Origin: Sandaracinaceae bacterium
Lineage (GTDB): Bacteria; Myxococcota_A; Polyangia; Polyangiales; Sandaracinaceae
Reading direction: 5' to 3'
Assembly: GCA_019637095.1 (NCBI GenBank)
Contig: JAHBWG010000040.1
Span: 1-64,000 of the forward strand
Length of the DNA: 64,000 nucleotides
The notes beneath the pieces were generated by a model. It was not told the origin of the DNA and did no database searches. It saw nothing but the letters and a program-made list of their open reading frames with translations. Below are positions 7,193-57,539 of this stretch, in pieces (the stretch's first letter is position 1; each line of letters starts with the position of its first letter). Position numbers and translations under genes: made by a program.

Positions 7193-7194
7193 GG

Positions 7195-7704: not shown

Positions 7705-7737
7705 GGCTCTGTCTCCTGGGACGCAGCCTGCCACGGC

Positions 7738-7756
7738 GTTGCAGCGCAGGTTGCGA
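7738..7756 (+). promoter_or_regulatory. GTTGCAG / GTTGCGA pair in cupin-YeeE gap
   Basis: GTTGCAG (7738-7744) and GTTGCGA (7750-7756) lie 12 bp apart, about one helical turn, 40-57 bp upstream of the YeeE -24 box. Same motif class as 1575, 4070 and 5868. Confidence 0.45.
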
Positions 7757-7793
7757 CGCGATGCAGCGGTCCCCAGACTCTCGGGGCGCCGGG

Positions 7794-7810
7794 CTGGTAT
7801 GGCGCATGCT
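7794..7810 (+). promoter_or_regulatory. Candidate sigma-54 promoter of YeeE/YedE pair
   Basis: The site reads CTGGTATG-GCGC-ATGCT. GG and GC are spaced correctly; five of seven -24 and four of five -12 positions match. Predicted start ~7821, two nt before ATG 7823. Confidence 0.45.
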
Positions 7811-7822
7811 GGAACGATTGAC

Positions 7823-8694: not shown

Positions 8695-8723
8695 GCGCCG
8701 CGCCGCGCACCTCGAGCCGCGCG

Positions 8724-10058
8724 CTACAACAGGCAGGTGCCCAGGAGGCCGCAGTAGTGCAGCCCGAGGAGGCGGTCCTCGCAGCACGTGCGGCCGATGG
8801 GGCAGACGCCCAGGCACACACACCGGCCGCCCGACGAGCAGCGGCTGACCGACAGGTCGCACTCGCAGACGCCGTCGCCGTCACAGTCGCGGCGGTCGTC
8901 GGCGCACGCGGAGACCGCGGCGTCGGGGCGCACGGTGCCCGCGTCGAGCGTCATCGGGGCGCCGGCGTCGGCGCTCATGCAGGAGCACGCGTCGTCGCTC
9001 CCGGCGCACGGCTCGAAGCCCGGGTCGCACACGCAGCTCGCGCCGGAGCCCTCGACGACGCACGTCGTGTTGCCCGTGCAGCGCGCCGCGAACGTGCAGC
9101 CGCCGCCGGAGCAGATCGCCTCGTGGCACGCGTCGGTGGTCGTGCAGTTGTTCGTCTGCTCGCAGCGACCGTCGACGCACACCCCGCGGTGGCACGCGGG
9201 CGCCGCGCACGTCCCGTCGCGGGCCGCGTCGACGCAGCTCACGCGCCCGGCGCCGTCGCGCTCGCACGCGCGCACGCGGCAGCTCGTCGGGTCGAGCTCG
9301 CCTCCGCACACGATCGGCGGCGCGATCCGGCACATGCCTTCCTCACAGAACGCCTCGACGCACGGGTCGGGGTGCGTGCAGCTCGCGTCGCTCAGCGCGT
9401 TTCGGTAGAAGCACGTCCCGGTCGTCTCGTCGCACGAGGCCACGCGGCACTGGCGCCGCGGACAGTCCACGTCGTCCACGCAGCTCGGCGGGATCGGCTT
9501 GCAGCCGCCCGTCCCGGGCGGATCGCACGCGGTGCCCTCGGGGCAGGCCGTGTCGTCGATCGCGTGCTCGCACCCGGTCGTCGCGCAGAAGTCGATCGTG
9601 CAGCCGATCCCGTCGTCGCAGGCCGCGTCGTCGCGCGTCGGCTGGCAGCCCAGGACCTCGTCGCAGCGCGCGCCGAGGCAGACGACCCCGGGCGCGGCGC
9701 ACCGGTCGTGGCGGGGCTCGTGGGCGCAGCCGCGGCCTTCGACGCAGGTGTCCTCGGTGCACGGGATCGCGTCGTCGCAGTCGATCGCGCGGCCCGGCGC
9801 GCAGAGGCCGCGCACGCAGCGCTCGCGCCCGTTGCACGTCAGGTCGTCGTCGCACTCCGCGTCGGTGGTGCACGGCGCAGGCGGGCCGGCGTCGCGTCCG
9901 CCCGCGTCGCGTCGCGCCGCGCCGTCCATCCCGACCTCGCCCGCGTCGGCGAGCCCGCCGTCCATCCTCGCGACCGACCCGTCGGGCCGTGGGTCGAGAT
10001 CGAGCACCATGCCGCAGCCCGAGCCGAGGATCGCGCACGCGAGCACGAGGTGACGCAC
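8724..10058 (-). CDS. Large cysteine-rich surface lipoprotein
   Basis: A 444-residue protein with an N-terminal lipoprotein signal (ILGSGC, Cys15). A linker rich in Asp, Gly and Ala (residues ~20-60) is followed by many CxxDxxC-like modules such as CTTDAECDDDLTC and CDDAIPCTEDTC to the C-terminus. The very regular cysteine spacing implies many disulfides and an extracellular location. Proteins of this design are abundant in Sandaracinus-type myxobacteria and have no assigned biochemical role; adhesion or matrix functions are guesses. It is monocistronic, with the PF10118-like gene ending 37 bp upstream. Confidence 0.85.
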   Translation of the reverse strand: MRHLVLACAILGSGCGMVLDLDPRPDGSVARMDGGLADAGEVGMDGAARRDAGGRDAGPPAPCTTDAECDDDLTCNGRERCVRGLCAPGRAIDCDDAIPCTEDTCVEGRGCAHEPRHDRCAAPGVVCLGARCDEVLGCQPTRDDAACDDGIGCTIDFCATTGCEHAIDDTACPEGTACDPPGTGGCKPIPPSCVDDVDCPRRQCRVASCDETTGTCFYRNALSDASCTHPDPCVEAFCEEGMCRIAPPIVCGGELDPTSCRVRACERDGAGRVSCVDAARDGTCAAPACHRGVCVDGRCEQTNNCTTTDACHEAICSGGGCTFAARCTGNTTCVVEGSGASCVCDPGFEPCAGSDDACSCMSADAGAPMTLDAGTVRPDAAVSACADDRRDCDGDGVCECDLSVSRCSSGGRCVCLGVCPIGRTCCEDRLLGLHYCGLLGTCLL

Positions 10059-40298: not shown

Positions 40299-41612
40299 AT
40301 GCTCCCGTGCTTCCGGATGCGCCGCCCGAGCGAACGAGTTGGTGTGGTCCCGTTCGGCGCGGCCCTCGTGGTCGAGCGCTGGCGCCTTTCGAACGGCCTC
40401 ACCGTCCTCTTACTCCCCGACCCGAGCGCCCCGCTCATCAGCTACCACACGTGGTTCCGGGTCGGCTCCCGCTACGAAGAGGAGGGCAAGACCGGCCTCG
40501 CCCACTTCTTCGAGCACATGATGTTCAACGAGACCGAGCGGCTCGCCTGGGGCGAGTTCGACCGGCGGATCGAGGAGGCGGGCGGCGAGACGAACGCGGC
40601 GACCTGGATCGACTGGACCTACTACCACGAGTCGCTGCCGAAGGACGGGCTCGGGCTGGCGATCGAGCTCGAGGCCGAGCGGATGGGCCGCCTGGTCGTG
40701 CAGAAGGCGCAGGTCGAGTCCGAGCGCGAGGTCGTCGCCAACGAGCGGCGCATGGCCGTCGAGGACAGCGTCCGCGGCAAGGCGGACGAGCTGCTCGCCG
40801 AGCTCGCGTACGGGCGTCACCATCCGCACGGCTGGCCGACGATCGGCTGGATGGCGGACATCGAGGGCTACCGCGTCGCCGACTGCAAGGCGTTCTACCG
40901 GACGTGGTACGCGCCCAACAACGCCACCGTGGTCGTCGCCGGCGACTTCGACCCGGCGGACGCGCTGGCGCGGATCGAGGCGGCGTACGGCGCCTTGCGC
41001 CCGGTGAAGCTGCCCGCGCGCGCCGCGCCGCCGCCGAGCCGCCAGCGCGCCGAGCGCCGCGCGAAGCTCCCGTGGCCGACGCCGTCCGAGAAGCTCCTGA
41101 TCGGGTGGCACGGGCCCGCGCAAGGCGAGCGCGACCACGCGGTCGCCGAGCTGATCCACGACCTCTGGATCGGCGGTCGGAGCGGGCGGCTCCGCAAGCG
41201 CCTCGTCGACGACCTCGAGATCGTCACCCGCATCCGCGGCCACGTCGGCGGGCTCGCGCACGCGGGCCTGTTCGATCTCTGGATCGAGCTGCGCGAGGGC
41301 GTCGAGGCCGCCCGCGCGCTCGCCGTCGTCGACGCGGAGGTCGCCCGCCTGGCCGGCGAGCTCGTGCCGGCGGACGAGCTCGACAAGGTCAAGGCCCGCA
41401 CCGAGCTCTTCACCCTGGGGGCCGTCGAGACGATGAACGAGAAGGCGTATCAGGTGGGATTCGGGGAGACGGTGGTCGGAGACCCCGCCCACGTCTTCGC
41501 CCGCCTCGACGAGGCGCGCGAGGTGACGGCCGAGGACGTCCGCCGGGTATCGAGCTCGGTGCTGCGCACCGCGCGCCGATCGATCGTCCACGTGGTGCCG
41601 GAGGGCGCGTGA
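40299..41612 (+). CDS. M16 metallopeptidase, catalytic subunit
   Basis: A 437-residue M16 (pitrilysin/processing-peptidase-like) protein. The inverted zinc motif HFFEH (in GLAHFFEHMMF) and the distal Glu in ESEREVVANE are present, so it should be active. No signal peptide is seen with ATG 40299; MRR at 40317 is an alternative. It overlaps the next gene by 4 bp (GTGA). The pair matches the common bacterial two-subunit M16 arrangement in which only one subunit holds zinc. Confidence 0.92.
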   Translation: MLPCFRMRRPSERVGVVPFGAALVVERWRLSNGLTVLLLPDPSAPLISYHTWFRVGSRYEEEGKTGLAHFFEHMMFNETERLAWGEFDRRIEEAGGETNAATWIDWTYYHESLPKDGLGLAIELEAERMGRLVVQKAQVESEREVVANERRMAVEDSVRGKADELLAELAYGRHHPHGWPTIGWMADIEGYRVADCKAFYRTWYAPNNATVVVAGDFDPADALARIEAAYGALRPVKLPARAAPPPSRQRAERRAKLPWPTPSEKLLIGWHGPAQGERDHAVAELIHDLWIGGRSGRLRKRLVDDLEIVTRIRGHVGGLAHAGLFDLWIELREGVEAARALAVVDAEVARLAGELVPADELDKVKARTELFTLGAVETMNEKAYQVGFGETVVGDPAHVFARLDEAREVTAEDVRRVSSSVLRTARRSIVHVVPEGA

Positions 41613-42919
41613 TCGCGCCCGCGTTCCGGCTGCCGGGCGGGGTCCCGGTGTTCCTGGAGGTATCGCACGCGCTCCCGATCGTGGACGTCGACGTGGTGAT
41701 CACGCGCGGCTCCATCCTGGATCCAGTCGGCCGCGAGGGGCTGACCCGCCTGACGGCGCGGCTGATGCGGCGCGGGCCGGCGGGCGTGGACGCGGACGTG
41801 TTCGACGAGCGGCTCGACCGGCTCGGCGCGACGCTCAGCCTCTCGGTCGGGCCCGAGTCGATGCGCGTCCAGGGCACGGTGATCCGCCGCAACCTGCCGG
41901 CGTTCCTCGACGAGCTCGCCGCGATCCTGCGGGCGCCGGCGCTGCGCGAGGACGACTTCGCGAAGGTCAAGCGCACCATCGAGTCGGAGCTGGTGCAGCT
42001 GCGCGACCACGACGCGAGCCTGGCGGCCCGCGCGCTCCGGCGCTTCCTCTTCGGGCGTCACGCGTACGGCAGACCGGCCGGCGGCACGCTGGCGTCGGTC
42101 GCCGCGATCACCCTCGACGACGTGCGGGCCTGCCACGCCGCGCGCTTCCGCGCGCCTCACGCGATCGTCGGCCTCGCCGGCGACGTGCGGCCGGAGGAGG
42201 CGGAGCGTCTCGTGCGCGATGCGCTCACCGAGCTCCCGCGCGGCGCCGCGCGCCGGCCGCCGGTGCGCGAGCCGCGGCAGCGCCCGGGCCGCCGCGTGTT
42301 CCTCGTCGACAAGCCCAAGCGCACGCAGTCGCAGATCTACGTCGGCACGCTCGGGATGAAGGTCGCCGAGCCCGACCACCACGCGATGATGGTGGCGAAC
42401 ACCGCGTTCGGCGGGACGTTCACCGCGCGCCTGATGAAGGCGGTGCGCAGCGATCGCGGCTGGAGCTACGGCGCCTACAGCAAGCTCGGCGCCGACCGGC
42501 AGCGCGAGGCGTGGTCCATGTGGACGCACCCAGGCGCCGAGCAGCTCGTCGATTGCCTCGCGCTCGAGCTGCAGCTCTACGAGCGCTGGATCGACCGCGG
42601 GCTGACGCGCGAGGAGGTCCGCCGCGCGAAGCGCTACCTGGTGAAGGGGCACGCGTTCGACCTCGAGACGGCGAGCAAGCGGCTCGAGCCCAAGCTCCAG
42701 ACCGCCGCGCTCGAGCTGCCGCCCGACTGGTTCGAGCGCTACCCCGAGCGCATCGGCGCGGTGACCCGCGACGAGGCGAACGCGGCCGTCCGGGCGCGCC
42801 TCTCGCGCGACGACCTCACCATCGCCGTGCTCGCGACGGCGACGCCGGAGCTCCGCCGTAAGCTCGCGGCGCTGCCCGGCGTGCGCGAGGTCCGCGTGAT
42901 CTCGTACGCCGACGTGTGA
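41609..42919 (+). CDS. M16 metallopeptidase-like, non-catalytic subunit
   Basis: A 436-residue M16 homologue from the overlapping GTG 41609. The zinc motif is replaced (LTRLTARLM), so it is not catalytic. The C-terminal substrate-binding region is conserved: NTAFGGTFTARLMKAVRSDRGWSYGAYS, with the Arg/Tyr pair used by partner subunits. It should form a heterodimer with the upstream protein to make the peptide chamber. Two hairpins follow its stop. Confidence 0.9.
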   Translation: MIAPAFRLPGGVPVFLEVSHALPIVDVDVVITRGSILDPVGREGLTRLTARLMRRGPAGVDADVFDERLDRLGATLSLSVGPESMRVQGTVIRRNLPAFLDELAAILRAPALREDDFAKVKRTIESELVQLRDHDASLAARALRRFLFGRHAYGRPAGGTLASVAAITLDDVRACHAARFRAPHAIVGLAGDVRPEEAERLVRDALTELPRGAARRPPVREPRQRPGRRVFLVDKPKRTQSQIYVGTLGMKVAEPDHHAMMVANTAFGGTFTARLMKAVRSDRGWSYGAYSKLGADRQREAWSMWTHPGAEQLVDCLALELQLYERWIDRGLTREEVRRAKRYLVKGHAFDLETASKRLEPKLQTAALELPPDWFERYPERIGAVTRDEANAAVRARLSRDDLTIAVLATATPELRRKLAALPGVREVRVISYADV

Positions 42920-43178: not shown

Positions 43179-43194
43179 TGGCACGTCCGTTGCC
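43179..43194 (+). promoter_or_regulatory. Strong sigma-54 promoter of the metalloprotease operon
   Basis: TGGCACG-TCCG-TTGCC matches the -24/-12 consensus at every core base. Predicted start ~43205, giving a leader of ~195 nt before GTG 43401. It is the best -24/-12 match I found in the window. The activator that serves it is not identified; no enhancer-binding protein gene is adjacent. Confidence 0.82.
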
Positions 43195-43400
43195 TAGGGC
43201 GGTGCTCGCGCGAGTGTCCTCGTCGCGCCCGCATGGCGGTCGCGAGCGGTTCGTCGTAAAGGGGCGAGCCGTTGACAGCTCGGTGACGTTGGGCTCTGCT
43301 CCGCGCCCTCCTCGCGAGGGGAGCGCGGCAGGACCCAGCGGCGGCCGGGCTCTCGGGTGGCTCGGGCGGTGGCTCGGGACGGAACAGGGAGAAACGTTCG

Positions 43401-44747
43401 GTGAAGAACGCGACGCTGTCGGCGCTGTTGCTTCTGCTGCTCGGGGTGACCTGGGCGGGGGTCGCGGCGGCACAGGCCGACGATGAGACGGACGGCGGTG
43501 ACGCCTCCGAGCCCGGGGACGCCGAGGAACGCGCGGTCCCGCCCGATGCCGAGCCCGCCGAGGTCGAGCCTCCCGCGCAGGATCCGGCCGAGCAGGCCGA
43601 GCAGGGGACGACCGCGCTCGGCTCGCCGCAGCTCGCAGAGGGCGGTGACGACGAGGGGGAGCCGGAGGCCCCGGCCGCGGCGGAGGCCGCGCCGGCGCCC
43701 GCCGACGAGCCCCTCCCGTGGCGGAATAGCTTCTTCAACTACACGAACCAGGTCAGCACGAACTCGTTCTGGCGGGGCTCCCAGCTCAGCTACAACCCGA
43801 CGTGGGAGATGCTCTTCTCCGCCGTGCCGCGCTGGTATCCCGGCACGGGCGGCTTCCTGCGCGCCATCGTCGGCATGCGCCTCGAGGTCACCGACGACGA
43901 CTCGAACGCGCTCAACCGCGAGCCGCTGCTGAACGACATCCTCATCGACTACGTGCACCCGTTCAGCCTCGGCGACGGCTACATCCTCATGCCTTCGCTC
44001 CGGGTGAGCATCCCGACCTCGCGGCTGAGCCTCGCCGCGCAGCGCTACCTCCAGCTCGGCGCGCAGCTCACGGCGATCAAGATCATCCCGGAGGCGGGCA
44101 ACCTCACGCTCGCGCTCCTGGGCCGCTACGCGTACTGGTTCGCGGGCTCGAACGTCGTGCAGACCGACGACCCGCAGCCCGACCGCTGCCCTGCCGGCCC
44201 GCAGATCGACACCGGCGCGGGCGCCGGCATCGCGGACCCGGGGCTCTTCACCTGCGGTCAGTTCGGGACCGGCTCGAGCTTCGCGCACACCTTGCTCGCC
44301 GGCCTCTCCGCGACGGCGACCCCGATCGGCGCGTTCTCGATCAACCTCTCGGCGTTCCTGTTCATCACGCACGGCTACGGCCTCGCGCCCGCGTACGTCG
44401 ACGTCGCGACGAGCGAGGAGCCGCTGATGATCGCGGACGGCAGCCCGTCGCACTGGCAGAACTTCACCTTCATCTCCGTCTCGGTGGCGTACCAGTTCGA
44501 GCCGTGGCTCAACATGTCGCTGGGCATCCAGAACTCCGGCCTCGTCGCGCCGGTGTGGGACCCGAGCGGGAACCTCTACAACCCGCTGTTCACGCCGAAC
44601 ACGCAGGTGTGGCTCACGGCGACCTTCACCGTGGACGAGCTCTGGAAGGCGCTCTTCACCGGCGGTGAGGACGGCCTGACGCCCGAGGAGCGGCAGCGCC
44701 GCCAGCAGGGCCTCGCGAGCGGCCCGAGCCTCGGGGGGGCCTTCTGA
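43401..44747 (+). CDS. Predicted outer-membrane beta-barrel protein
   Basis: A 448-residue protein from GTG 43401 (GGGAG upstream). Signal peptide ~1-25 (GVAAAQA). Residues ~26-100 are an acidic, Pro/Ala/Glu-rich linker. The rest (from SFFNYTNQVSTNSFWRGSQLSY) is rich in alternating aromatic/hydrophobic strands with polar turns, such as LRVSIPTSRLSLAAQRYLQLG and FISVSVAYQFEPWLNMSLGIQN, typical of a barrel. No named family recognised. A disulfide-capable loop (~250-285) contains two cysteines. It is the first gene of the operon with the two giant metalloproteases, so it may be their outer-membrane partner or export channel. Confidence 0.78.
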   Translation: MKNATLSALLLLLLGVTWAGVAAAQADDETDGGDASEPGDAEERAVPPDAEPAEVEPPAQDPAEQAEQGTTALGSPQLAEGGDDEGEPEAPAAAEAAPAPADEPLPWRNSFFNYTNQVSTNSFWRGSQLSYNPTWEMLFSAVPRWYPGTGGFLRAIVGMRLEVTDDDSNALNREPLLNDILIDYVHPFSLGDGYILMPSLRVSIPTSRLSLAAQRYLQLGAQLTAIKIIPEAGNLTLALLGRYAYWFAGSNVVQTDDPQPDRCPAGPQIDTGAGAGIADPGLFTCGQFGTGSSFAHTLLAGLSATATPIGAFSINLSAFLFITHGYGLAPAYVDVATSEEPLMIADGSPSHWQNFTFISVSVAYQFEPWLNMSLGIQNSGLVAPVWDPSGNLYNPLFTPNTQVWLTATFTVDELWKALFTGGEDGLTPEERQRRQQGLASGPSLGGAF

Positions 44748-44845
44748 TGACGCGCACGAACGACAGCATCGAAACCGTTTCCGCAGCCGGCCTTCGGCGG
44801 CTGCCCATCGTCTTGGGGAAGACTGGCTCGTTGGAGGCTCGGAAC

Positions 44846-47800
44846 ATGAGGCGACTTCTCAACACGCTCGCGGTGCTCGGAGCGTTCTCGATCTTCGTCG
44901 GGGGTTGCGGTGACCTCCAGCCCCCGGTCAACCGGGTCGGCGTGAACGTGATCGAGAAGAGCGCGCTCGAAGGCACCTGGTACATGCACCAGACCATCAT
45001 CCAGATGGCCTACGAGGGCGCGCCGATCGGGTTCGTCGGTGCGAACGCGGGTGACGCCACGGGTGGCTTCCTCGGGTTCTCGATCCCGCGCATCCGCTGG
45101 GTCATCGACGAGAACTTCGTCTACGCCTACCGCGACTACGAGCTCATCGGCGATCCCGACGACCCCTTCCGCTACCGCGGGGACGAGGACGCGGACTACC
45201 TCGGCCAGCCGGTCGCGGCGTTCCGCATCCAGAGCCACTTCGACATCCGCCGCACCTACAACTCGGTGACGGGCGAAGAGCAGAACGTCGTGGTGGAGAA
45301 CACCAACGACCGCCACTGGTACGAGCGCCAGTTCATGCGCGTCGACTGGTCGCAGAACCTCGTGTCGCCCTCGTTCCAGGCGGGCGGCGGTTGGGTTCGC
45401 GCCGAGTCGGCGTCGCTCTTCGTGCAGGACGAGAGCCGCTACCCCCGCGAGTACCGCCCGCAGTTCCACTTCATGGGCTGCAGCGGCCCGACGGACACGA
45501 ACTGCGATCTCGACGACCGCGACTACGCGACCGACTACGACCAGGGCCAGCTCTACTCGATGAGCTTCGTCAACCAGATGATCCTGGCGCCGGCGCCCAA
45601 CGAGTTCGGCTTCCTCTGCAACTGGGGTGGGCCGTCCGAGCCGATCCTCCAGCAGTTCGGCGCGCCCGAGTGCGCGAGCGTCGAGATCTTCACGCGCACG
45701 AGCTTCCTGCGCGTGAGCGACCGGCGCGAGTACGAGCCGGTCGGCTGGACGCACGACCGCTTCAACCGCGCCGGCTACTTCGCCCTCGATCGCCCGACGT
45801 ACGATCTCTCGCGCGACGGCGAGGACCGCAGCGACGGCTTCACCGACTTCACCAACCAGTCGGCGAACCGCCACAACATCTGGCAGAACTGGTGGCAGCG
45901 CGACGCGAGCGGCGCCGTCGTCCGTGACGCCAGCGGCCAGCGCGTCCAGCTCCCGTACACCGAGCGGCGCGTGCGCCCGCTCCTCTGGTACACGAGCCGC
46001 GAGGTCCCCGCGCACCTGGTGCGGCCGAGCTACGAGCTCGTCGCGCAGTGGAACGAGACCTTCATGAGCACGGTGCGCCAGCTGCGCGGCCAGGAGCCGC
46101 CGCAGTACCAGCCGGTCTCCTGCCAGAGCGACGACCCGGGCGGCTACTGCTACTGCCAGCGCCACCCGGACACCGGCGAGGTGCTCAACCCGACCTGCCG
46201 CGGCATGTACGACCCGTTCGAGTCGCCGGACGCTGCGCGCGGGCGCCTCTCCGGGGGTGAGCCGTACGACTGCTACGTCGCGCGCGTGGACGCGGCGGGC
46301 AACGTCGTCGGCAGCGCGTTCGACGCCGAGCCGGACTGGACCAACACCGGGCTCACGGACGCCGCGTTCAACGGCTGGTTCGAGACCGCGATGGTCGGCG
46401 CCGAGTGCGTCAACGTCCTTCGCATCAACACCTGCCACTTCGGCAACCGTGACGAGTGGGGCTCGCTCGACTGCCAGCAGCGCGGCGACATCCGCTTCAA
46501 GCTGCTCAGCTACGTCGACCAGCCCGGCACGCCCTTCCTCGGCGTCGCTCAGCTCCGCGGCGACCCGGTCACCGGCGAGATCATCACCGGCGACGCGAAC
46601 ATCGGCGGCCCGGCGATGGACACCCAGCGCACCCGCGCGATGGAGGCCTACGACCTCATCAACGGGAACCTCACCACGCAGGAGTACTACACGGGTGAGG
46701 ACGTCCGGGCGTACCTGAACGCGCTCTCCCACGTGGAGCTGCCCGCCGCGCCCCGCATCGACTTCCGCACCGCGCTCCCGAGCGGCGGCATCGCGTCCGC
46801 GATGCACGGCGTGATGGGTCGCGCGCTCGATCGCGCGGAGCTGCTCCGGGGCGCCGAGGGTCGCGCGGCGATCTTCAGCGACCGCGGCCGCGAGCTCATC
46901 GGCAGCGACATCGAGCGCCGCCTCGTCTCCGGGCCCGACGCGCTCGCCATGGCCGGCCTCGACTTCGCGCCCAACGGCTCGTCGCTCGAGTCCTTCGGCA
47001 GCGAGATCATCGACCGCGTCTCGCCGTTCCGGGGCTCGCTCGAGGAGCAGTTCTACTCGATCACGGACCGTGAGCTGCGCTTCGCGCTCACGAACGTGCA
47101 CATGCCGACGGCCTACACCGACAACTCGGTCCTTCACTTCGTGACCGAGCACTCGGGCTGGCCGCGGGTGCGCGTCGAGTTCGAGCTCAACCGCCGCCTC
47201 TACCGCGACACGCAGGTCCACGAGATGGGCCACTGCCTCGGCCTGCGCCACCACTTCGGCGGCACGGCGGACCCGGGCAACTACTTCGACGGCTACTACA
47301 CCATCAACCAGCGGTTCCCGCTGCCGGAGCCGAGCGACTTCAACCGCGACGGCGTGCCGGGCCTGAGCCCGAGCGAGCAGATCGCGTTCGAGGACGCCTA
47401 CGAAGAGGCGCGCCGCCTGCGCGAGCTCGCCGGCATCGACCAGTGGGCGAACAGCTCGGTGATGGACTACACGCCGGAGTGGTACCAGCGCATCCAGGGC
47501 GCGGGCTACCACGACTTCATGGCGATCTCGTTCGGCTACGGCGACGTCGTGGACATCTACGACAACAGCCGCGCCGCCGACGGATCCTCGCGTCCGGCCC
47601 TGCCGATCGCGAACCTGAACCCGGTCAACACCCGTCGCGTCGGCGTCAAGTGGTACCACGGCGGCGAGACCTGCACGACCGACGCGGAGTGCCCGTTCTC
47701 GACGAGCGGCGCGCGCGCCGGCGAGCTGTTGCCGGCGAACCGGTCCGCGGGGATCACCCAGACCTGTCAGCCGAACCCGCGCACGTCCGGTCACCGGGTG

Positions 47801-49285
47801 TGCTCGAACTTCGACGCCGACGTCGCTCGCTACATGGAGTCGGCCGGCCCGACCCCGGCGTGGGTGCCCGTCGAGTACTTCTACTGCGAGGACATCCGCT
47901 CGAGCACGCGCACGCTCCCGGGCTGCTCGATCTTCGACGCGGGTGACAGCTTCCGCGAGATCGTCCGCACCCAGATGCAGGCGTACGAGCGCTCGTACAT
48001 CTTCTCCAACTTCCGCCGCTACCGGCGCAACTTCACGACCTACACCTACGGCAGCTCGCTCATCCGCTACCTCGAGCCGCTGCTGACCATCTACCAGAAC
48101 CTCATCTACCGCTACGCGAGCGACCCGGCGTTCCGCGAGGTCGAGGGCGCCTTCGGCTTCGACGACCAGTTCCTCGCGACCGCGGACACGATGAACTTCT
48201 TCGCGCGCCTCCTCTCGCAGCCGTCGATCGGCTCGTACGAGTGGGACGCAGGGTGGAACCGGTACGAGATCGTGAGCTTCGACGCGCGCCCCGACGCGCA
48301 GGTCCGGATCCCGTTCGGGCAGGGCCGCTACCTCAACTCGATCTACCAGCGCGGCCTCACCGGCATCGATCGCGTCGAGCGGATCGGCAGCATCTACGAC
48401 TCGATCTACGGGATGCTCTTCATGACGGCGCGCGGCATCGGCCCGTTCTACGGCCCGGACGTCGCGTTCTGGACGAACTTCTACGACATCTTCCCGAACG
48501 AGATTCAGCAGATCTTCACCGGGATGATCGCGGGTCGCCCCGAGGAGTACATGCCTCGCCTGCAGTGCACGAGCGGGGACACCTTCCCGCGCTGCCGCGA
48601 GCCGCGCATGGTCTTCATGGACTTCTACCGCGGCGACTGCTCCATCGACCCGACGACCGGCTCGCCGCGCACGGAGACGTGCCGTCCGAACCCGGCGGAG
48701 GTCACCTACCGCGACCTCGCCGTCCTGAACGGCGGCACGCGGTTCTTCCTCCAGTCCTACGCGGCCATCTTCGCCCTGCAGGAGTTCCCCATCTACTACG
48801 ACACGACCTTCCAGAACCAGATGTACATCTGCGTCGAAGGTCAGGGGAACTGCTTCGCGCCGTCCGACACGGCCATCGAGGGCGTGGACTACGTCCGCCA
48901 CGTCAGCCGGCGGTTCAGCAAGAACTTCCTCGCCTGGCAGGTGGACGCGGACGACGGCGTGGCCGAGCAGACCTCCATCGCGTTCGCGATGGTCAGCGAG
49001 GCTCGCAACAACGACTTCATCATCCGGATGCTCCAGCGGTACCGAGGCGACCACCTCCCCGGTGACCCGCCGCCGAGCATCACCTACTTGACCCCGGAGG
49101 AGCGCGCGCAGCTCGCGGCGATCGGCTACGACGTCGAGGGCCTCGGCGCTGCGCAGGTGCAGGAGGAGATCACCCGCCTCGAGCAGCGCCTGAGCTCGCT
49201 GGAGTCGTTCTTCTTCTACCTGATCCAGCTCGAACGCGAGTTCGGGATCCAGTTCCCGCTCATCTACCGCCGGCCGGAGATCTGA
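44846..49285 (+). CDS. Giant lipoprotein zinc metalloprotease A
   Basis: A 1479-residue protein. ATG 44846 is chosen from TTGGAGG 8 nt upstream and because it opens a lipoprotein signal with VGGC; an earlier ATG (44747) overlaps the barrel stop. The zinc site HEMGHCLGLRH is at 792-802 and a Met-turn SSVMDY with Met873 follows, both metzincin features. The rest, including early RWVIDENFVYAYRDYE and DIRRTYNSVTGE, resembles the large zinc-dependent metalloproteases with DUF5117/DUF4953-like regions. Scattered cysteines suggest disulfides. Its location should be the outer-membrane surface or periplasm. It is paralogous to the next gene over its whole length. Confidence 0.88.
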   Translation: MRRLLNTLAVLGAFSIFVGGCGDLQPPVNRVGVNVIEKSALEGTWYMHQTIIQMAYEGAPIGFVGANAGDATGGFLGFSIPRIRWVIDENFVYAYRDYELIGDPDDPFRYRGDEDADYLGQPVAAFRIQSHFDIRRTYNSVTGEEQNVVVENTNDRHWYERQFMRVDWSQNLVSPSFQAGGGWVRAESASLFVQDESRYPREYRPQFHFMGCSGPTDTNCDLDDRDYATDYDQGQLYSMSFVNQMILAPAPNEFGFLCNWGGPSEPILQQFGAPECASVEIFTRTSFLRVSDRREYEPVGWTHDRFNRAGYFALDRPTYDLSRDGEDRSDGFTDFTNQSANRHNIWQNWWQRDASGAVVRDASGQRVQLPYTERRVRPLLWYTSREVPAHLVRPSYELVAQWNETFMSTVRQLRGQEPPQYQPVSCQSDDPGGYCYCQRHPDTGEVLNPTCRGMYDPFESPDAARGRLSGGEPYDCYVARVDAAGNVVGSAFDAEPDWTNTGLTDAAFNGWFETAMVGAECVNVLRINTCHFGNRDEWGSLDCQQRGDIRFKLLSYVDQPGTPFLGVAQLRGDPVTGEIITGDANIGGPAMDTQRTRAMEAYDLINGNLTTQEYYTGEDVRAYLNALSHVELPAAPRIDFRTALPSGGIASAMHGVMGRALDRAELLRGAEGRAAIFSDRGRELIGSDIERRLVSGPDALAMAGLDFAPNGSSLESFGSEIIDRVSPFRGSLEEQFYSITDRELRFALTNVHMPTAYTDNSVLHFVTEHSGWPRVRVEFELNRRLYRDTQVHEMGHCLGLRHHFGGTADPGNYFDGYYTINQRFPLPEPSDFNRDGVPGLSPSEQIAFEDAYEEARRLRELAGIDQWANSSVMDYTPEWYQRIQGAGYHDFMAISFGYGDVVDIYDNSRAADGSSRPALPIANLNPVNTRRVGVKWYHGGETCTTDAECPFSTSGARAGELLPANRSAGITQTCQPNPRTSGHRVCSNFDADVARYMESAGPTPAWVPVEYFYCEDIRSSTRTLPGCSIFDAGDSFREIVRTQMQAYERSYIFSNFRRYRRNFTTYTYGSSLIRYLEPLLTIYQNLIYRYASDPAFREVEGAFGFDDQFLATADTMNFFARLLSQPSIGSYEWDAGWNRYEIVSFDARPDAQVRIPFGQGRYLNSIYQRGLTGIDRVERIGSIYDSIYGMLFMTARGIGPFYGPDVAFWTNFYDIFPNEIQQIFTGMIAGRPEEYMPRLQCTSGDTFPRCREPRMVFMDFYRGDCSIDPTTGSPRTETCRPNPAEVTYRDLAVLNGGTRFFLQSYAAIFALQEFPIYYDTTFQNQMYICVEGQGNCFAPSDTAIEGVDYVRHVSRRFSKNFLAWQVDADDGVAEQTSIAFAMVSEARNNDFIIRMLQRYRGDHLPGDPPPSITYLTPEERAQLAAIGYDVEGLGAAQVQEEITRLEQRLSSLESFFFYLIQLEREFGIQFPLIYRRPEI

Positions 49286-49295
49286 GGTGAGGACC

Positions 49296-52200
49296 ATGGG
49301 CACGAACAGTCACTCCTATCGGCACGGAATCAGCGTCATGCGGAACTTCCTCCTCGGTCTCATCGTCCTCGCGGTCGGCGGCCTCTCGGTCGTCGGGTGC
49401 GTCGAGCCCGGCCCGGACATCGACCGGACCCAGAACAACCTCGTCGACAAGCGCATCTTCGAGGGCGAGTGGTGGCACAGCCGCGCCGTCCTCGACGCCG
49501 GCGACGACGGGCTCTGGGCCATCGCCCAGGCCGGCGCCGGCGCGCCCTGGGAGGGCGCGATGGCGAACTTCGACATCGCGTCTCGCTCAGGCGTCATCGG
49601 CCGCATCCGCTGGGTGATCGACGAGAACTTCCTCTACGCCTACCGCTCGCACGAGATCGTCGTGGGCGCGGCGGAGGACGCGACCTCGCCGGACTTCCTC
49701 GGGCAGCCGCTCGCGATCTACCGCATCACCGGGCACGTCGACGTCCGCTACGAGTACAACACCCTCACGGGCGAGCGGACGAACGTCATCAGCGAGTCGC
49801 AGGACCGCCGCTGGTACGACCGGCAGTACATGCGGGTCGACTGGTCGACGAACCTCGTCACCTTCGGCCTGTTCGGCGCGAGCCTCGAGCTCGAGCAGTT
49901 CTTCGGCACCTTCCGCCGCGAGCCGGTGGACTCGTGGATCCAGGAGGGCGGCGACGGCCGGATCCCGGACTCGTGGCGCCCGCAGTTCGTGCGCATCGGG
50001 AACGACCGCTCGTCCTACCGCTGGGCGGACGAGTGGCCGACCGACATGGACGACACGGTCCACTACATGTCCTTCGTGGCGCAGGAGATCTGGACGCCGA
50101 CCAACTGCTTCGGAGAGGCGTGCAACTCGTCGGTGCGGCTGATCTTGCGCAACTCGTTCCTGCGCGTCCCGCCGAACCACGAGTACGCGGTCGAGACGCT
50201 GCCGAACAGCGAGTACGACCGGTTCGGCATCATCCGCACCGAGCAGCGCACCTTCTTCCGCGGCAGCCGCGAGCGCTCGGGCATCGGCGCGTACTGCGAC
50301 GCGACCGCGATCGCCACCTGCAACTTCGACGAGGACTGCGGCGTCGGCGGCGTGTGTGATCTCGGCACGAGCCGCTGCACGGCGGGCGTCCTCGAGGATC
50401 TCGACGACTGCGGCGCCGGCAACCGCGCGAACTACGCGACCGGCCGCTGCGAGAACGACACCGACGCGGTCTGCGGCGGCGCCCTCTGCAACACGTCGAC
50501 GCACCTGTGCGAGGGCGGCCTGAGCGCGCACCGCGGCGAGACCGACTGGCTCACCTTCTACCGGCTGCGCCACAACTTCTACTCCCGCTCGCTCCAGCGC
50601 GACCGCCCCTGCCTGGCGGACTGGCAGTGCGACAACCGCCACGGGACGATCGCCGGCGCCGACCCGGCGATGACCGACGGCTCGGTGTGTGACGTCGCGG
50701 CCGGGGTGTGCACCATCCCGATCCGCCAGCGTCCGGTGCGCCCGGTGGACTACCACCTCAGCCCCGGCTTCCCGCGCTACCTCGTGCGCAGCGCGTTCGA
50801 GGTCATCTCGGACTGGAACGACACGTTCATGACCGGCAACCGCGCCCTGCGTGGCGAGCCTGCGCCGACCGGGCCGGACGTGGCGTGTCAGAGCACGAAC
50901 CCCGCGGACTACTGCTTCTGCGGCGACGTCAACGCGCCCGAGGTCCGCGCGGATCGCACCTGCGCGCACCGCAGCAACATGTTCGTCCCGCCGGAGATGC
51001 GCGGTGAGACCAACGCGTTCCGATGCTGGGTGGGGATCGTCGGGCCGGACGGGACCGCCCGCCCGGAGAGCGAGACGGAGAATCCGTCGCGCCCGACGAG
51101 CTACGCCGACTACCCCGAGGACGTCTACCGCTACGCCTTCATCGGCGACGAGTGCATGCTCCGCCTGCAGGTGAACAGCTGCGACCGGCCCGTCGCCGAC
51201 GGCCAGCCGCGCGCCGCCTGCGAGGAGTACGGCGACCTGCGCTACCAGTTCTTCAACTACACCTCCGGCGCCGGCGCGGGCTGGTGCGGCGTCATGCAGC
51301 CCCTGCAGGACCCGACGACCGGTGAGGGCATCAGCATCCCGGTCAACATGGGCGGCCTCTGCCTCGACCGGATCGCCACGCGCGCCCTCGACCTCTGGCC
51401 GGTGCTCCGCGGCGAGGTCGCGGAGGACACGCTGTACTCGGGCGAGCACATGCGCGGTTACTACGAGCGCACGGGCAACGTCCACGTCCCGGTCGGCTTC
51501 GCGCCGGCCATCGACGGCGCCGAGTACCGTCCGGACGACCTCGGTCGTCCGGCGGGCATGGCGATGATCCCGACCGACCTGAACACGCACCTCAACGAGG
51601 TCTTCGCGTCGGTCGCCCCGCGCCTCGAGCGCCTCGCGGGCGTCGGCCCGGACGGGAGCACCGAGGGTGAGGGCCGCGCGCTCCTGTTCTCGGGCCGCCT
51701 TCGCAACCTGCAGGGCACCGCGCTCGAGCGGCGCTTGGTCGAGGGCATGGCGCTCGAGGGCGCGGACGCGTTCCGCACCCAGAGCCCGCTGCTCGCGTAC
51801 AACACCGAGCAGCGCAGCGGTGGCCGCGTGAGCACGGAGGCGCTGATCGACCAGATCTCGCCGTTCCGCGAGGGCTTCAACGACCTCGTCCACGCGCAGG
51901 TCCGGCAGGACCAGCTCCTGCTCGACAACTACATCCACATGCCCCGCGAGGCGATCTTCACGAGCCGCTACAACCAGTGGTGGGCGGAGGCGTTCCGCGG
52001 CCGCAGCCAGGGTGAGGCGGGCATCCGCTGGCGCCAGGCGTTCCACAAGGTCGTGATGCTCCACGAGATGGGCCACGGCCTGGGCATGGAGCACAACTTC
52101 GCCGGCAGCTACGACCGCAACCACTACGCGGACGGCTACTTCAACCTCGTCACGCAGACGGACGCCTCGGGTCGGCACACGCTCGCGTTGCCGGTGCTCG

Positions 52201-54209
52201 ATCAGTACGACTGCGGCACCGACGGGCTCTGCCCCGGCGACCCGGGCTACACCGGCCCGGACACCGGCGAGCGCGACAACAACATCACGCACCTCGAGAT
52301 GACGCGCTGGGCGGCGGACCTGCGCCGCATCCGCACCGAGCGGACGCGCGCCGGCATCGGCAACACGATGACGTCCAGCCTCATGGACTACAACGGCGAC
52401 TTCTCGGACATGGCCGGCCTCGGCCACTACGACCGCGCCGCGATCTACTTCAACTACTTCAACCTCGCCGAGGCGTTCGCGGGTGATCCGCGCTACCGCG
52501 CGGGCGCGGGGACGTCGCTCGACGGCCTGCGCCGGTCGGACACCACGCCGCGCACGCTCTGGACGTGGTACCGCGGCGGCGAGGCGTGCAACGCCACCGC
52601 CGACTGCCCGTACTCGGCCGGGAACCAGTCCCTCACCGACGATCAGGGCATCCACCAGCGCTGCATCCGCAACCCGCGCTACGCCGGCATCCCGGTGCCC
52701 TGCAACGGGGACCGGAACTGCGTCTGCTCGAGCTTCGACGAGGACTTCATCGACTACGTCGAGGGCGCGGAGCCGACCTACCAGTGGGACCGCGACGGCG
52801 ACGGCGCGCCCGACCACGAGCGCGTGAACTACCTGTTCTGCTCGAACTCGCGCCTCAGCGACATCTCGTGGTGCAACGTCTTCGACGCCGGCGAGAGCTT
52901 CCAGGAGACGATCGATCACATGCGGCAGCAGTGGCAGGAGGGCTACCCGACGTCCTACTTCCGCAACTACCGCCGCGGGTTCAGCACGGGCAGCCGCGCG
53001 ATCCGCTCGATCGTCGACGCCGCGAAGATCTACCAGCACCTCTTCTTCCGGTACTTCTACGAGCCGGAGTTCCGGCGCCAGATCGGCCCGCTCGGGTTCA
53101 ACGACCAGTACCTCGCCTCGATCGACGCGATGAACTGGCTCGCGGAGCTCGCGCAGCTGCCGGACGCGGGGTCCTACCAGGTGCGCAACGTGCGCGGCCC
53201 GGAGACCTGTCACCCGACCAACCCGAGCGCGCCCGGCAACACGCCCGACTGCCGCTACGGCTACGTCCACATGGGTGAGCAGATGGGCATGCCCGGCGCG
53301 GACATCACCCTCGGGCCCGGCCAGGGCTTCTACCACTGGTCGCGTTACCAGGACGGCCTGTACGGGTTCTTCCGCATGGAGCGCGCCGGCGTCTTCTGGG
53401 ACAAGCTCATCGCGCTGCAGGCGCTCACCGTGCGTGACTGGGGTCTGAGCTTCACGATCGACGAGCGGTTCTTCATCAACTTCTACGACCTGTTCCCGAT
53501 CGAGATGACCGAGCTCTTCGGTGCGTACGTCATCGACGACGACTTCAACCGCGCTCCGCGCGTGGCCCGCGCCGCGGGTGCCGACTCCGAGATCTACTAC
53601 GTCAACCTGCTCCGCGGGAACTGCCGTAGCGCGGTCTCGGGCGCCTTCGAGCCCTGCGTCGGCGAGGTCCAGGATCGGTTCCCCGACCTCCCGATCATGG
53701 GGACGAGCAACGAGATCCTGCGCCTCTACGCGTCGATCTTCGCGCTCGCCGAGTTCCCGGTCTTCTACGACCCGTCGTTCGAGAGCCGGATCGCCATCTT
53801 CAAGCTCGACAGCGCGGATGGCTTCCGGATCCCGGACATCCAGCTCAGCGGCCTGCCGACGCGTGCGTTCGGCGAGGCGATCCCCGGCTCGGGCCACGAG
53901 GTGGTGACGGACCCCACCGCCGCGGACTACATCATCTACCTCTCGGATCGGCTCCACCAGCCGTACGTCGCGGTGAAGGTGCGTGAACGCCTCACCTTCA
54001 ACCTCGAGGAGGAGCAGATCGGGTTCTACCTGCTGCACCGCCTCTACGGCCTCCAGCAGGAGGTCCGTGCCCTCGAGGCGCGCGGCACGCTCACCCCGAG
54101 CGAGCGCGCGCACCTGACCGAGCTCCGCCGCCGGCTCGTCGCGGGCGAGTCCTTCCTCGAGGCCCTGATCGAGGTCCAGGACATCTTCGGCATCACCTCC
54201 TGGCTGTGA
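49296..54209 (+). CDS. Giant lipoprotein zinc metalloprotease B
   Basis: A 1637-residue paralogue of the preceding protein, from ATG 49296 (GAGGTG 6 nt upstream); ATG 49338 is an alternative. Lipobox VVGC. Zinc site HEMGHGLGMEH (923-933) and Met-turn SSLMDY (Met1030) are intact. Shared landmarks with A include RWVIDENFLYAYRSHE and NTLTGERTNV. It carries an extra Cys-rich insert of about 60 residues (CNFDEDCGVGGVCDLG and following) that looks like the modules of the Cys-rich lipoproteins, absent from A. Tandem duplication followed by divergence is the simplest origin. The double hairpin at 54213 ends the unit. Confidence 0.88.
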   Translation: MGTNSHSYRHGISVMRNFLLGLIVLAVGGLSVVGCVEPGPDIDRTQNNLVDKRIFEGEWWHSRAVLDAGDDGLWAIAQAGAGAPWEGAMANFDIASRSGVIGRIRWVIDENFLYAYRSHEIVVGAAEDATSPDFLGQPLAIYRITGHVDVRYEYNTLTGERTNVISESQDRRWYDRQYMRVDWSTNLVTFGLFGASLELEQFFGTFRREPVDSWIQEGGDGRIPDSWRPQFVRIGNDRSSYRWADEWPTDMDDTVHYMSFVAQEIWTPTNCFGEACNSSVRLILRNSFLRVPPNHEYAVETLPNSEYDRFGIIRTEQRTFFRGSRERSGIGAYCDATAIATCNFDEDCGVGGVCDLGTSRCTAGVLEDLDDCGAGNRANYATGRCENDTDAVCGGALCNTSTHLCEGGLSAHRGETDWLTFYRLRHNFYSRSLQRDRPCLADWQCDNRHGTIAGADPAMTDGSVCDVAAGVCTIPIRQRPVRPVDYHLSPGFPRYLVRSAFEVISDWNDTFMTGNRALRGEPAPTGPDVACQSTNPADYCFCGDVNAPEVRADRTCAHRSNMFVPPEMRGETNAFRCWVGIVGPDGTARPESETENPSRPTSYADYPEDVYRYAFIGDECMLRLQVNSCDRPVADGQPRAACEEYGDLRYQFFNYTSGAGAGWCGVMQPLQDPTTGEGISIPVNMGGLCLDRIATRALDLWPVLRGEVAEDTLYSGEHMRGYYERTGNVHVPVGFAPAIDGAEYRPDDLGRPAGMAMIPTDLNTHLNEVFASVAPRLERLAGVGPDGSTEGEGRALLFSGRLRNLQGTALERRLVEGMALEGADAFRTQSPLLAYNTEQRSGGRVSTEALIDQISPFREGFNDLVHAQVRQDQLLLDNYIHMPREAIFTSRYNQWWAEAFRGRSQGEAGIRWRQAFHKVVMLHEMGHGLGMEHNFAGSYDRNHYADGYFNLVTQTDASGRHTLALPVLDQYDCGTDGLCPGDPGYTGPDTGERDNNITHLEMTRWAADLRRIRTERTRAGIGNTMTSSLMDYNGDFSDMAGLGHYDRAAIYFNYFNLAEAFAGDPRYRAGAGTSLDGLRRSDTTPRTLWTWYRGGEACNATADCPYSAGNQSLTDDQGIHQRCIRNPRYAGIPVPCNGDRNCVCSSFDEDFIDYVEGAEPTYQWDRDGDGAPDHERVNYLFCSNSRLSDISWCNVFDAGESFQETIDHMRQQWQEGYPTSYFRNYRRGFSTGSRAIRSIVDAAKIYQHLFFRYFYEPEFRRQIGPLGFNDQYLASIDAMNWLAELAQLPDAGSYQVRNVRGPETCHPTNPSAPGNTPDCRYGYVHMGEQMGMPGADITLGPGQGFYHWSRYQDGLYGFFRMERAGVFWDKLIALQALTVRDWGLSFTIDERFFINFYDLFPIEMTELFGAYVIDDDFNRAPRVARAAGADSEIYYVNLLRGNCRSAVSGAFEPCVGEVQDRFPDLPIMGTSNEILRLYASIFALAEFPVFYDPSFESRIAIFKLDSADGFRIPDIQLSGLPTRAFGEAIPGSGHEVVTDPTAADYIIYLSDRLHQPYVAVKVRERLTFNLEEEQIGFYLLHRLYGLQQEVRALEARGTLTPSERAHLTELRRRLVAGESFLEALIEVQDIFGITSWL

Positions 54210-54212
54210 GGC

Positions 54213-54272
54213 GAGGCGGGGCCTCCCCCGCCTCGAAGATGGCGGCCCGGTGCGCAACTCGCGCGCCGGGCC
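54213..54272 (+). terminator. Double hairpin terminating the metalloprotease operon
   Basis: GAGGCGGGG-CCTC-CCCCGCCTC (54213-54234) is a perfect 9-bp stem. GGCCCGG-T-GCGC with GCGC-G-CCGGGCC (54244-54272) is a 12-bp stem with one G-T pair. Both sit within 65 bp of the metalloprotease B stop and before the pyruvate dehydrogenase genes. Confidence 0.75.
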
Positions 54273-54326
54273 GTCGCGCTTTCGTGCTAGGCTCGCCCAC
54301 CCGCTGAGTTACGAGAGGACCCGCCG

Positions 54327-55301
54327 ATGGCGACCGACGAGCTGCTCCCGCTGTACCGCCAGATGCTCCTGATCCGCCGCGTCGAGGAGGAGGCGGCCCG
54401 CGCCTACGTGCAGGGCAAGATCGGCGGCTTCCTCCACCTCTACATCGGCCAGGAGGCGATCGCGGTCGGCACGGAGGCGGCGATCCAGAAGCGCGACGCG
54501 GTCATCACCACGTACCGCGACCACGGCTTCGCGCTCGCGCGCGGGATGAGCGCGCGCGCCGTGATGGCGGAGCTCTTCGGCCGCGACACCGGCTGCTCGC
54601 GCGGCCTCGGCGGCTCGATGCACATGTTCGACCGCGAGAACCGCTTCTACGGCGGCCACGGGATCGTCGGGGGTCACGTGGCGGTCGGGGCGGGCATCGC
54701 CTTCCGCGCGAAGTACCTCCAGCAAGACGACGTGACGCTCTGCTTCTTCGGCGAGGGCGCGACCAACATCGGCGGCTTCCACGAGGGGCTCTCGCTCGCC
54801 GGGCTCTGGAAGCTCCCCGCGGTCTTCGTCTGCGAGAACAACCTCTACTCGATGGGCACGCCGCTCGTGCGCTCGATGCCCGCGAAGGACCTCACCGACA
54901 AGGCGGCCGGCTACTCGATGGCGCGCGACCGCTTCGACGGGCACGACGTGCTGCACGTCCGCGATCGCATCCGCGAGGCGGTCGAGCGCGCGCGCTCCGG
55001 TGGCGGCCCGACGCTGGTCGAGATCCTCACCTACCGCTTCCGCGGGCACTCGATGAGCGACCCGGGCAAGTACCGCACCTCCGAGGAGGTCGAGGAGAAG
55101 AAGCGGCAGCACGATCCGGTGCGGATCGCGCGCCAGGGGCTGCTCGACGCGGGCACGCCGGAGGCGGAGCTCGCGGCGGTCGACGCCGGCGTCGAGGACG
55201 AGGTGCGCGACGCGGTCCGGTTCGCGGACGAGTCACCGCCGCCGACCCTCGAGACGATGTACGACTGCGTGCTCGCGCCGGAGGGAGGGCTCGATGCGTG
55301 A
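54327..55301 (+). CDS. pdhA: Pyruvate dehydrogenase E1 alpha subunit
   Basis: A 324-residue TPP enzyme subunit. Thiamine-diphosphate/Mg motif: FFGEGATNIGGFHEG to CENN. RDHGFALARGM and GLGGSMHMFD match E1alpha. With E1beta it decarboxylates pyruvate and acetylates lipoate on E2. ATG 54327 follows GAGAGGA. It overlaps pdhB by 8 bp, so the order alpha-beta-E2 is one operon. Branched-chain dehydrogenase E1alpha is an alternative, but pyruvate is favoured by the GLGGSMHMFD type. Confidence 0.92.
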   Translation: MATDELLPLYRQMLLIRRVEEEAARAYVQGKIGGFLHLYIGQEAIAVGTEAAIQKRDAVITTYRDHGFALARGMSARAVMAELFGRDTGCSRGLGGSMHMFDRENRFYGGHGIVGGHVAVGAGIAFRAKYLQQDDVTLCFFGEGATNIGGFHEGLSLAGLWKLPAVFVCENNLYSMGTPLVRSMPAKDLTDKAAGYSMARDRFDGHDVLHVRDRIREAVERARSGGGPTLVEILTYRFRGHSMSDPGKYRTSEEVEEKKRQHDPVRIARQGLLDAGTPEAELAAVDAGVEDEVRDAVRFADESPPPTLETMYDCVLAPEGGLDA

Positions 55302-56274
55302 GGTCCGCTACCGGGACGCGCTCCGCGAGGCGATGGCCGAGGAGATGCGCCGCGATCCGACCGTCGTCCTCATGGGCGAGGAGGTCGGCCACTACCAGGG
55401 CGCCTACAAGGTCACGCAGGGCCTGCTCGAGGAGTTCGGCGATCAGCGCGTGATCGACACGCCGATCGCGGAGGCCGGCTTCTCCGGGATCGCGGTCGGC
55501 GCCGCGATGACCGGCCTGCGCCCGATCGTCGAGTTCATGACCTGGAACTTCTCGCTCGTCGCGTTCGACCAGATCGTGAACAACGCCGCGAAGATGTACC
55601 AGATGAGCGGCGGCCAGCTCCCCGTGCCCGTGGTGTTCCGCGGGCCCAACGCCTCGGCGCGCCAGGTCGGCTCGCAGCACAGCCACGCGGTCGAGCCGTT
55701 CTACACGAACGTGCCGGGCCTCTACGTCGTCTATCCGTCGACGCCGCGCGACGCGAAGGGCCTGCTCAAGACGGCGATCCGCAGCGACAACCCCGTCGTG
55801 TTCCTCGAGGGCGAGACGCTCTACAACGCCAAGGGCGAGGTCCCCGAGGAAGAGGAGCTGATCCCGTTCGGGGTGGCGCGCGTCGCGCGCGAGGGCACCG
55901 ACGTGACGGTGGTGACCTGGGGACGGCCGTACGTCACGGTGATGAAGGTCGCCGAGGAGCTCGCCGAGCGCGGCGTGAGCTGCGAGGTGATCGACCCGCG
56001 CACGCTGCGGCCGCTCGACCACGAGACGATCGTGGAGTCGGTGAAGAAGACGAACCGCTGCGTGGTCGTGCACGAGCACTGGCCGTACGGCGGGCCGGGC
56101 GCGGAGATCGTCGATCGCGTGCAGCGCGACGCGTTCGACTACCTCGACGCGCCGATCCTGCGCGCCACGAACCTCGACGTGCCGATGCCCTACGCGATCG
56201 AGCTCGAGAACGAGGTGATCGTCACCGAGGCGCGCGTGCGCGAGGCGATCGAGCGCGTCTGTTACCTGGACTGA
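55294..56274 (+). CDS. pdhB: Pyruvate dehydrogenase E1 beta subunit
   Basis: A 326-residue subunit matching E1beta throughout: [22 protein letters not shown] at the start, [26 protein letters not shown], then [16 protein letters not shown]. It completes the E1 tetramer active site. ATG 55294 lies inside the last codons of pdhA (8-bp overlap); pdhC starts 14 bp after its stop. Length is normal for the family. Confidence 0.94.
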
Positions 56275-56288
56275 GCGGGGAGCGAGTC

Positions 56289-57539
56289 ATGGCGAAGATC
56301 ATCGGGCTGCCCAAGCTGTCGCCGACGATGGAGGAGGGGACCCTCGCCCGCTGGGCGAAGAAGGAGGGGGACGCGATCGCGATCGACGACCTCATCGCCG
56401 AGATCGAGACGGACAAGGCGACGATGGAGTGGCGCGCCTTCGACCCCGGCGTGCTCCTGAAGATCCTCGTCGAGGAGGGCGCGGTGCTCTCGCCCGACGC
56501 GCCGGTGGCGATCATCGGGGCCGCGGGCGAGGACGTCAGCGCGCTGCTCGGTGAGCTCGCGGGCGGGGGACCGGTGCCCGCGCCGGCCCCGCCGAAGGCG
56601 TCCGCCGCGGCCGCGCCCGCCGCGCCCGCCGCCGCTTCGGCCGCGCCCGCACCGGTCGCGCCGGCGACGGGCGGACGCGCGCTCGCCTCGCCGCTCGTCC
56701 GCAAGCTCGCGCGCGAGCACGACGTCGACCTCACCGAGGTCGCGGGCACCGGCCCCAAGGGGCGCGTGATCAAGCGCGACCTCGACGCGTGGCTCGCGTC
56801 GCCCCGCGCGGCGGCGCCCGCCGCGAGCGCCGCGCCCTCGGGCGTGCGGCTCCCGCCGCGCGTCGAGAAGCTCTCCTCGATGCGGCGCACGATCGCGCGC
56901 CGGCTCACCGAGTCCAAGCAGACCGTCCCGCACTTCTACCTGACGATCGACCTCGACGCGGCGCCGCTGCTCGCCGCGCGCGCGCAGCTCAACGCCGAGC
57001 TCGAGCGCGACGGCGAGAAGGTCAGCGTCAACGATCTCGTGATCAAGGCGTGCGCCCTCGCGCTGCGGCGCGTGCCGGCGGCGAACGCGTCGTTCATGGG
57101 CGACGCGATCCACTACCACCAGGTCGTCGACGTGTCGGTCGCCGTCGCGGTGCCCGACGGGCTCGTCACGCCGGTCGTGCGCGACGCCGACCGGCTCGGC
57201 GTCCGCGCGATCGCGGCCCAGGTCCGCGAGCTCGCCAAGCGCGCGCGCGACAAGCGCCTCGCGCCCGAGGAGATGACGGGCGGCACGTTCAGCATCTCCA
57301 ACCTCGGGATGTACGGCGTCGAGGAGTTCGCCGCGGTGATCAACCCGCCGGAGGGCTGCCTGCTCGCGGTCGGCGCCGTGCGCGACACGCCCGTCGTGAG
57401 CGGCGGGCAGGTCGTGGCCGGCAAGCGCATGAAGGCGACGCTCTCGTGCGACCACCGCGTGGTCGACGGCGCGGTCGGCGCCGAGTGGCTCGCGGCGTTC
57501 AAGAAGGTCGCCGAGGCGCCGGTCCTGATGCTCTTGTGA
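56289..57539 (+). CDS. pdhC: Pyruvate dehydrogenase E2 (dihydrolipoyl acetyltransferase)
   Basis: A 416-residue E2 with one lipoyl domain (lipoyl-Lys in [11 protein letters not shown], ~residue 43), an Ala/Pro linker, a peripheral-subunit-binding domain ([16 protein letters not shown] to GRVIKRDL, ~135-170), and a catalytic domain ending [16 protein letters not shown] (His and Asp of HxxxDG). It transfers acetyl to CoA. E3 (lipoamide dehydrogenase) is absent from the window and must be encoded elsewhere. Converges with fbp, 3 bp between stops. Confidence 0.94.

Follow-up and report, generated by a model that had tools for sequence, protein, structure and literature searches.

A sigma-54-linked operon of a predicted outer-membrane barrel and two giant lipoprotein metzincins suggests a possible, undescribed proteolytic machine in the myxobacterial cell envelope

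Partnerships between barrels and lipoproteins are a common outer-membrane design, and the default orientation of lipoproteins in this membrane is towards the periplasm. SusCD-like nutrient uptake systems combine a 22-stranded TonB-dependent barrel with glycan-binding lipoproteins. Many Myxococcota are predators or feed on protein, and most of their envelope proteases are unassigned. Barrels are also found alongside proteases. The Fap barrel FapF is encoded together with FapD, a periplasmic C39 protease that is needed for secretion (PMC5557850).

We analyzed a window of 64,000 nucleotides, the whole stretch of DNA considered here, from the 9.25 Mb genome of a Sandaracinaceae myxobacterium. It contains an operon for an outer-membrane barrel and two giant lipoprotein proteases (Table 1). 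Like the Fap operon, it places a barrel and a protease in one transcription unit, but the proteases here are metzincin lipoproteins, unrelated to the C39 protease of Fap. We saw no counterparts of FapA, FapB, FapC or FapE and no amyloid genes beside the barrel. By analogy with general knowledge, the locus also recalls SusCD-like systems in joining an outer-membrane barrel to large lipoproteins that act on a polymer. It differs from them in having a 12-stranded barrel of passive type and in that its lipoproteins are proteases. An earlier, sequence-only reading of this DNA recognized no described system of such a composition, and the open literature that we searched likewise contains no description of a barrel combined with twin lipoprotein proteases. 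The combination of a barrel with a giant metzincin lipoprotein may be a new type of barrel-lipoprotein partnership.

The three open reading frames lie on the forward strand, and their third-position GC of 0.96-0.97 is the local coding signature. The barrel stop codon and the start of the largest protease 1 frame share 1 nt (44747), and a single base separates this second frame from the third. The likely true starts of the proteases are the ATG codons at 44846 and 49338, from which each protein begins with a short signal peptide of the lipoprotein type. Two hairpins lie past the operon. We found no real U-run behind either of them and no canonical intrinsic terminator at the operon end, so both are termination candidates only. 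The sequence-only reading had proposed this layout, namely a barrel with an acidic linker, then two paralogous metzincin-like lipoproteins with intact zinc motifs and Met-turns, then two hairpins, and each of these elements was confirmed by our analysis.

Table 1. Features of the barrel-protease operon (positions in the window)
Feature	Position	Strand	Remarks
Sigma-54 (RpoN) -24/-12 promoter	43179..43193	+	TGGCACGTCCGTTGC; exact consensus; conserved in relatives
Barrel gene	43401..44747	+	448 aa, GTG start, coding
Acidic linker	43473..43718	+	Ala/Glu/Pro-rich, flexible, joins the signal peptide to the barrel; predicted to be periplasmic
12-stranded barrel domain (modelled)	43719..44636	+	model residues 22-327 aligned with PDB barrels
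Protease 1 (likely start)	44846..49285	+	lipoprotein metzincin; largest ORF 44747-49285 (1512 aa)
Protease 1 lipobox Cys (VGGC)	44906..44908	+	C54 invariant in 11 orthologues
Protease 1 zinc-binding motif HEMGHCLGLRH	47219..47251	+	
Protease 1 Met-turn SSVMDY	47453..47470	+	M906, Y908 invariant
Protease 2 (likely start)	49338..54209	+	lipoprotein metzincin; largest ORF from GTG 49287, 49287-54209 (1640 aa)
Protease 2 lipobox Cys (VVGC)	49398..49400	+	signal peptide ends VGC
Protease 2 zinc-binding motif HEMGHGLGMEH	52062..52094	+	
Protease 2 Met-turn SSLMDY	52374..52391	+	
Hairpin 1 past operon	54212..54235	+	-22.3 kcal/mol, z -2.7
Hairpin 2 past operon	54241..54275	+	-35.8 kcal/mol, z -5.1

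The operon is flanked by two consecutive M16 peptidase genes on its 5' side (40299-42919) and by genes for pyruvate dehydrogenase E1 alpha, E1 beta and E2 on its 3' side (54327-57539). The pyruvate dehydrogenase genes keep this position in many Polyangiales, and M16-like genes also occur shortly 5' of the barrel at two other loci (L156 and L157). Clustering of the neighbouring genes returned these two groups, the pyruvate dehydrogenase genes downstream and the M16 peptidases upstream. It revealed no conserved third gene, such as a substrate or a peptide transporter, and mainly reflected local synteny, as is mostly true of the M16 pair.

We modelled the barrel protein with AlphaFold from six sequences. 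The model has 12 strands and is of moderate confidence (mean pLDDT 66, pTM 0.62). The nearest solved structures in VIA-align are FapF (Z 17.9) and COG4313 (Z 17.7), over 232-236 residues; both are 12-stranded, and with 9-13% identity the match is one at the level of the fold. The locus also differs from FapF and COG4313 in its operon content and in that Pfam gave no match for the window barrel; no match was consistent among 18 homologues either. A sequence search of the PDB with the barrel returned no match. The linker preceding the barrel domain carries 15 Glu and 10 Asp within an 84-residue stretch, similar linkers are present in homologues, and a short tail lies C-terminal to the barrel domain. 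Judged by its model, the barrel looks like a channel.

Each protease contains the metzincin signature HExxHxxGxxH followed by a Met-turn, and each begins with a short signal peptide and a lipobox Cys (MRRLLNTLAVLGAFSIFVGGC and MRNFLLGLIVLAVGGLSVVGC). Lipoboxes are present in most homologues that we checked. The zinc motif and the Met are invariant in an 18-sequence family alignment, and HExGHxx[GSAF]xxH is kept in 128 of the 129 non-redundant homologues that reach 900 aa or more. The only homologue without it comes from the same genome as the window, where it is a third paralogue. Over 1267 aa, protease 1 and protease 2 share 28% identity; they contain 26 and 41 Cys residues, respectively. Both look like active, Cys-rich metzincins anchored in the outer membrane.

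The proteases can be assigned at the superfamily level only, as met-zincins. They share with PF16313 (DUF4953) the catalytic helix HExGHxxGxRHN. Their scores of 16.4 and 22.9 bits fall below the gathering threshold of 24.2, and the match covers 23-28 of 316 positions, the zinc helix only. Some more distant relatives in the same protease family pass this cut-off, with 45.2, 34.0 and 27.7 bits. For the remainder of each protease, Pfam and NCBIfam gave nothing above cut-off, and sequence searches of the PDB gave nothing significant. A Foldseek search of the PDB with a whole protease model of 1199 residues (pTM 0.77) returned only meaningless matches.

We counted barrel and protease genes across genomes using HMM searches. 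Among 284 genomes of Myxococcota, 137 have both, 25 have only the protease, 3 have only the barrel and 119 have neither (140 with the barrel and 162 with the protease in total), a co-occurrence with p about 4e-50 when kinship is ignored. Within the order, 141 of 184 genomes have both, 13 the protease only, 3 the barrel only and 27 neither, again ignoring kinship (totals of 144 for the barrel and 154 for the protease). Some members of three genera (g9, g19 and g26) lack both genes, or nearly so. Genus g9 includes five genomes with both genes and about a dozen with neither. Barrel and proteases are on separate contigs in the two g9 genomes inspected in detail (G012 and G020), and the g19 genomes that have both also carry them on different contigs. 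These results show that, throughout Myxococcota, the barrel and this protease family share one pattern of inheritance and loss.

The barrel lies directly ahead of a protease on one strand at 41 fetched loci, many with overlapping stop and start codons; loci outside the order were chosen because the genes are adjacent, so 41 is a minimum number of occurrences and says nothing about frequency. Other layouts include divergent genes (L086, L087 and L090) and a protease followed by a barrel (L088), and many Polyangiales carry the barrel at a site unlinked to the proteases. The full three-gene operon occurs in genomes G001 and G006 of genus g2 (Sandaracinus), and the same gene order is present in G353 (L152), which belongs to a different order of the class. 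The sequence-only reading had suggested looking for this order elsewhere and had staked its proposal in part on conservation of the barrel with the proteases; both were found. A barrel that is merely a chance neighbour is ruled out by the co-occurrence and the repeated adjacency, and we conclude that barrel and protease very probably form one functional module. A candidate fusion of the two genes in G039 was rejected because a stop codon separates them.

We examined the history of the proteases in a FastTree phylogeny of 119 sequences, some of them on long branches. The first protease genes of three-gene or paired loci form one clade and the second genes form another, each with 99% local support. 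G353, from that other order of the class, has two proteases, one in each clade, so the duplication predates the separation of these orders. On this tree, protease 1 and protease 2 are ancient clades, and they have stayed neighbours from a time before the class split into its orders. Two families (f7 and f12) have a separate tandem protease pair (loci L132, L134, L135 and L150), which arose independently. The widespread core is one barrel and one protease, and the two-protease version is an ancient expansion.

The promoter ahead of the operon, described as near-perfect in the sequence-only reading, has no mismatches to TGGCACG-N4-TTGC and also fits TGGCAC-N5-TTGC at -24/-12. The next base is C, not A or T, and the site sits 222 nt ahead of the barrel start. 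The host genome contains rpoN. The exact pattern occurs 4 times genome-wide, compared with 3 matches for a reversed control, so a match in a single genome proves nothing and conservation in other genomes has to carry the assignment. We scanned from 450 nt upstream to 240 nt inside the longest ORF, allowing one mismatch at most and keeping GG and GC fixed. Sites were found at 27 of 108 first genes of homologous units; the counts were 5 of 649 for other ORFs and 0 of 70 for internal (downstream) genes (p about 8e-20, for a set that includes related sequences). In three genomes where the barrel is unlinked from the protease pair (G043, G053 and G056), each unit has its own site. Positional conservation across genomes, not the single-genome count, thus rules out a chance promoter.

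The motif, with at most one mismatch, lies 5' of the barrel in 6 of 7 barrel-protease-1 loci from other Sandaracinaceae (L068-L072 and L091, not L092) and in one divergent copy (L087). Scanning the Sandaracinaceae copies L086, L088, L090 and L092 gave no site. The few sites outside Polyangiales (L156-L158) are GC-rich and probably due to chance. The sigma-54 link is a trait of Polyangiales and stands outside the phylum-wide module.

We tentatively favour a model in which the operon encodes an outer-membrane module of proteases and a channel for extracellular proteolysis and, probably, peptide passage, regulated by sigma-54 in Polyangiales. RpoN-containing RNA polymerase, together with an enhancer-binding protein, would turn on the operon, probably under nutrient or nitrogen limitation. 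All three proteins would be exported by Sec; the proteases would then receive a lipid anchor that holds them in the outer membrane, and Bam would insert the barrel. At the cell surface, the proteases would most likely degrade extracellular or prey protein, and the peptides released would enter the periplasm through the barrel. Proteases of the two clades presumably form a pair or have complementary specificities. We infer peptide uptake only from the fold class and the protease chemistry. The lipoproteins could face the periplasm, and a role in predation is possible. The sequence-only reading had proposed a surface protease complex that might serve predation, matrix turnover or cargo release. 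Points that weigh against our model are the moderate confidence of the barrel structure, the 25 phylum genomes in which a protease but no barrel was detected, the many Polyangiales with unlinked genes, and the neighbour clustering, which gave no conserved partner such as a peptide transporter.

Surface proteolysis with peptide entry is the most likely reading, and it has serious rivals in export with processing and in protease display. The structural similarity of the barrel, which is highest to the polypeptide transporter FapF and to COG4313, its long acidic N-terminal linker and the requirement for FapD, encoded with the Fap barrel, in secretion (PMC5557850) would all suit a barrel that exports an unfolded substrate, which the lipoproteases, facing periplasm or surface, process or license. 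We regard such a secretion or maturation route as unlikely: FapF is matched by fold only, neighbour clustering offers no conserved third gene fit to be the substrate, and Cys-rich proteases of about 1450-1600 aa resemble degraders of varied substrates, not one maturation enzyme. The barrel might instead be the route or anchor that brings the giant lipoproteases to the cell surface or keeps them there, as is implied by the sequence-only reading, in which the complex is assembled with or through the barrel. Its near-strict dependence on the protease (3 of 140 barrel genomes lack one), the immediate adjacency of genes with overlapping stop and start codons and the precedent of barrel-lipoprotein partnerships count in favour of display. 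That role is nevertheless improbable, as protease-only genomes (25 in the phylum sample, 13 in the order) would be without a display route and a folded, Cys-rich protein of 1450 residues would find a 12-stranded pore narrow.

The default orientation of outer-membrane lipoproteins and the porin-like character of the barrel also fit periplasmic proteases for quality control or cell-wall remodelling that lie beside a general porin by chance. We consider this very unlikely, since co-occurrence, repeated adjacency in varied layouts and sigma-54 sites at unlinked units are hard to square with a chance neighbour. Returning to surface proteolysis, the module is a concrete, testable candidate for myxobacterial protein breakdown at the cell surface: both members are present in about half of the sampled phylum genomes, they disappear together, and in a single order they are linked to sigma-54. 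A bolder version, in which the barrel is the dedicated and obligate partner of giant met-zincins throughout the phylum, in an undescribed machine of a new barrel-lipoprotein class with which these predatory bacteria attack or eat protein by barrel-coupled proteolytic uptake or display, is doubtful.

Several individual sequences depart from the family pattern. The residue after the second zinc His (HExGHC, 47234-47236 in the window) is an invariant Cys in Polyangiales protease 1 orthologues and is Gly, Ser or Ala in protease 2. At L132, L134 and L150, Ser or Ala takes the place of the metzincin Gly in the zinc motif. The third paralogue in the window's own genome (locus L008, C1:98000-114000; 4768-8892, reverse strand) is a 1374-aa relative of protease 2 on a very long branch. 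It has lost the zinc motif (RLVGHGLGLAP), retains an open frame and a lipobox, and is likely a pseudoprotease. A weak C2 match in the same genome was rejected as not being a real family member. Elsewhere in this genome (contig C119, L193), another of the only four exact sigma-54 consensus sites lies at 755-769, just 5' of the point where a small lipoprotein gene likely starts.
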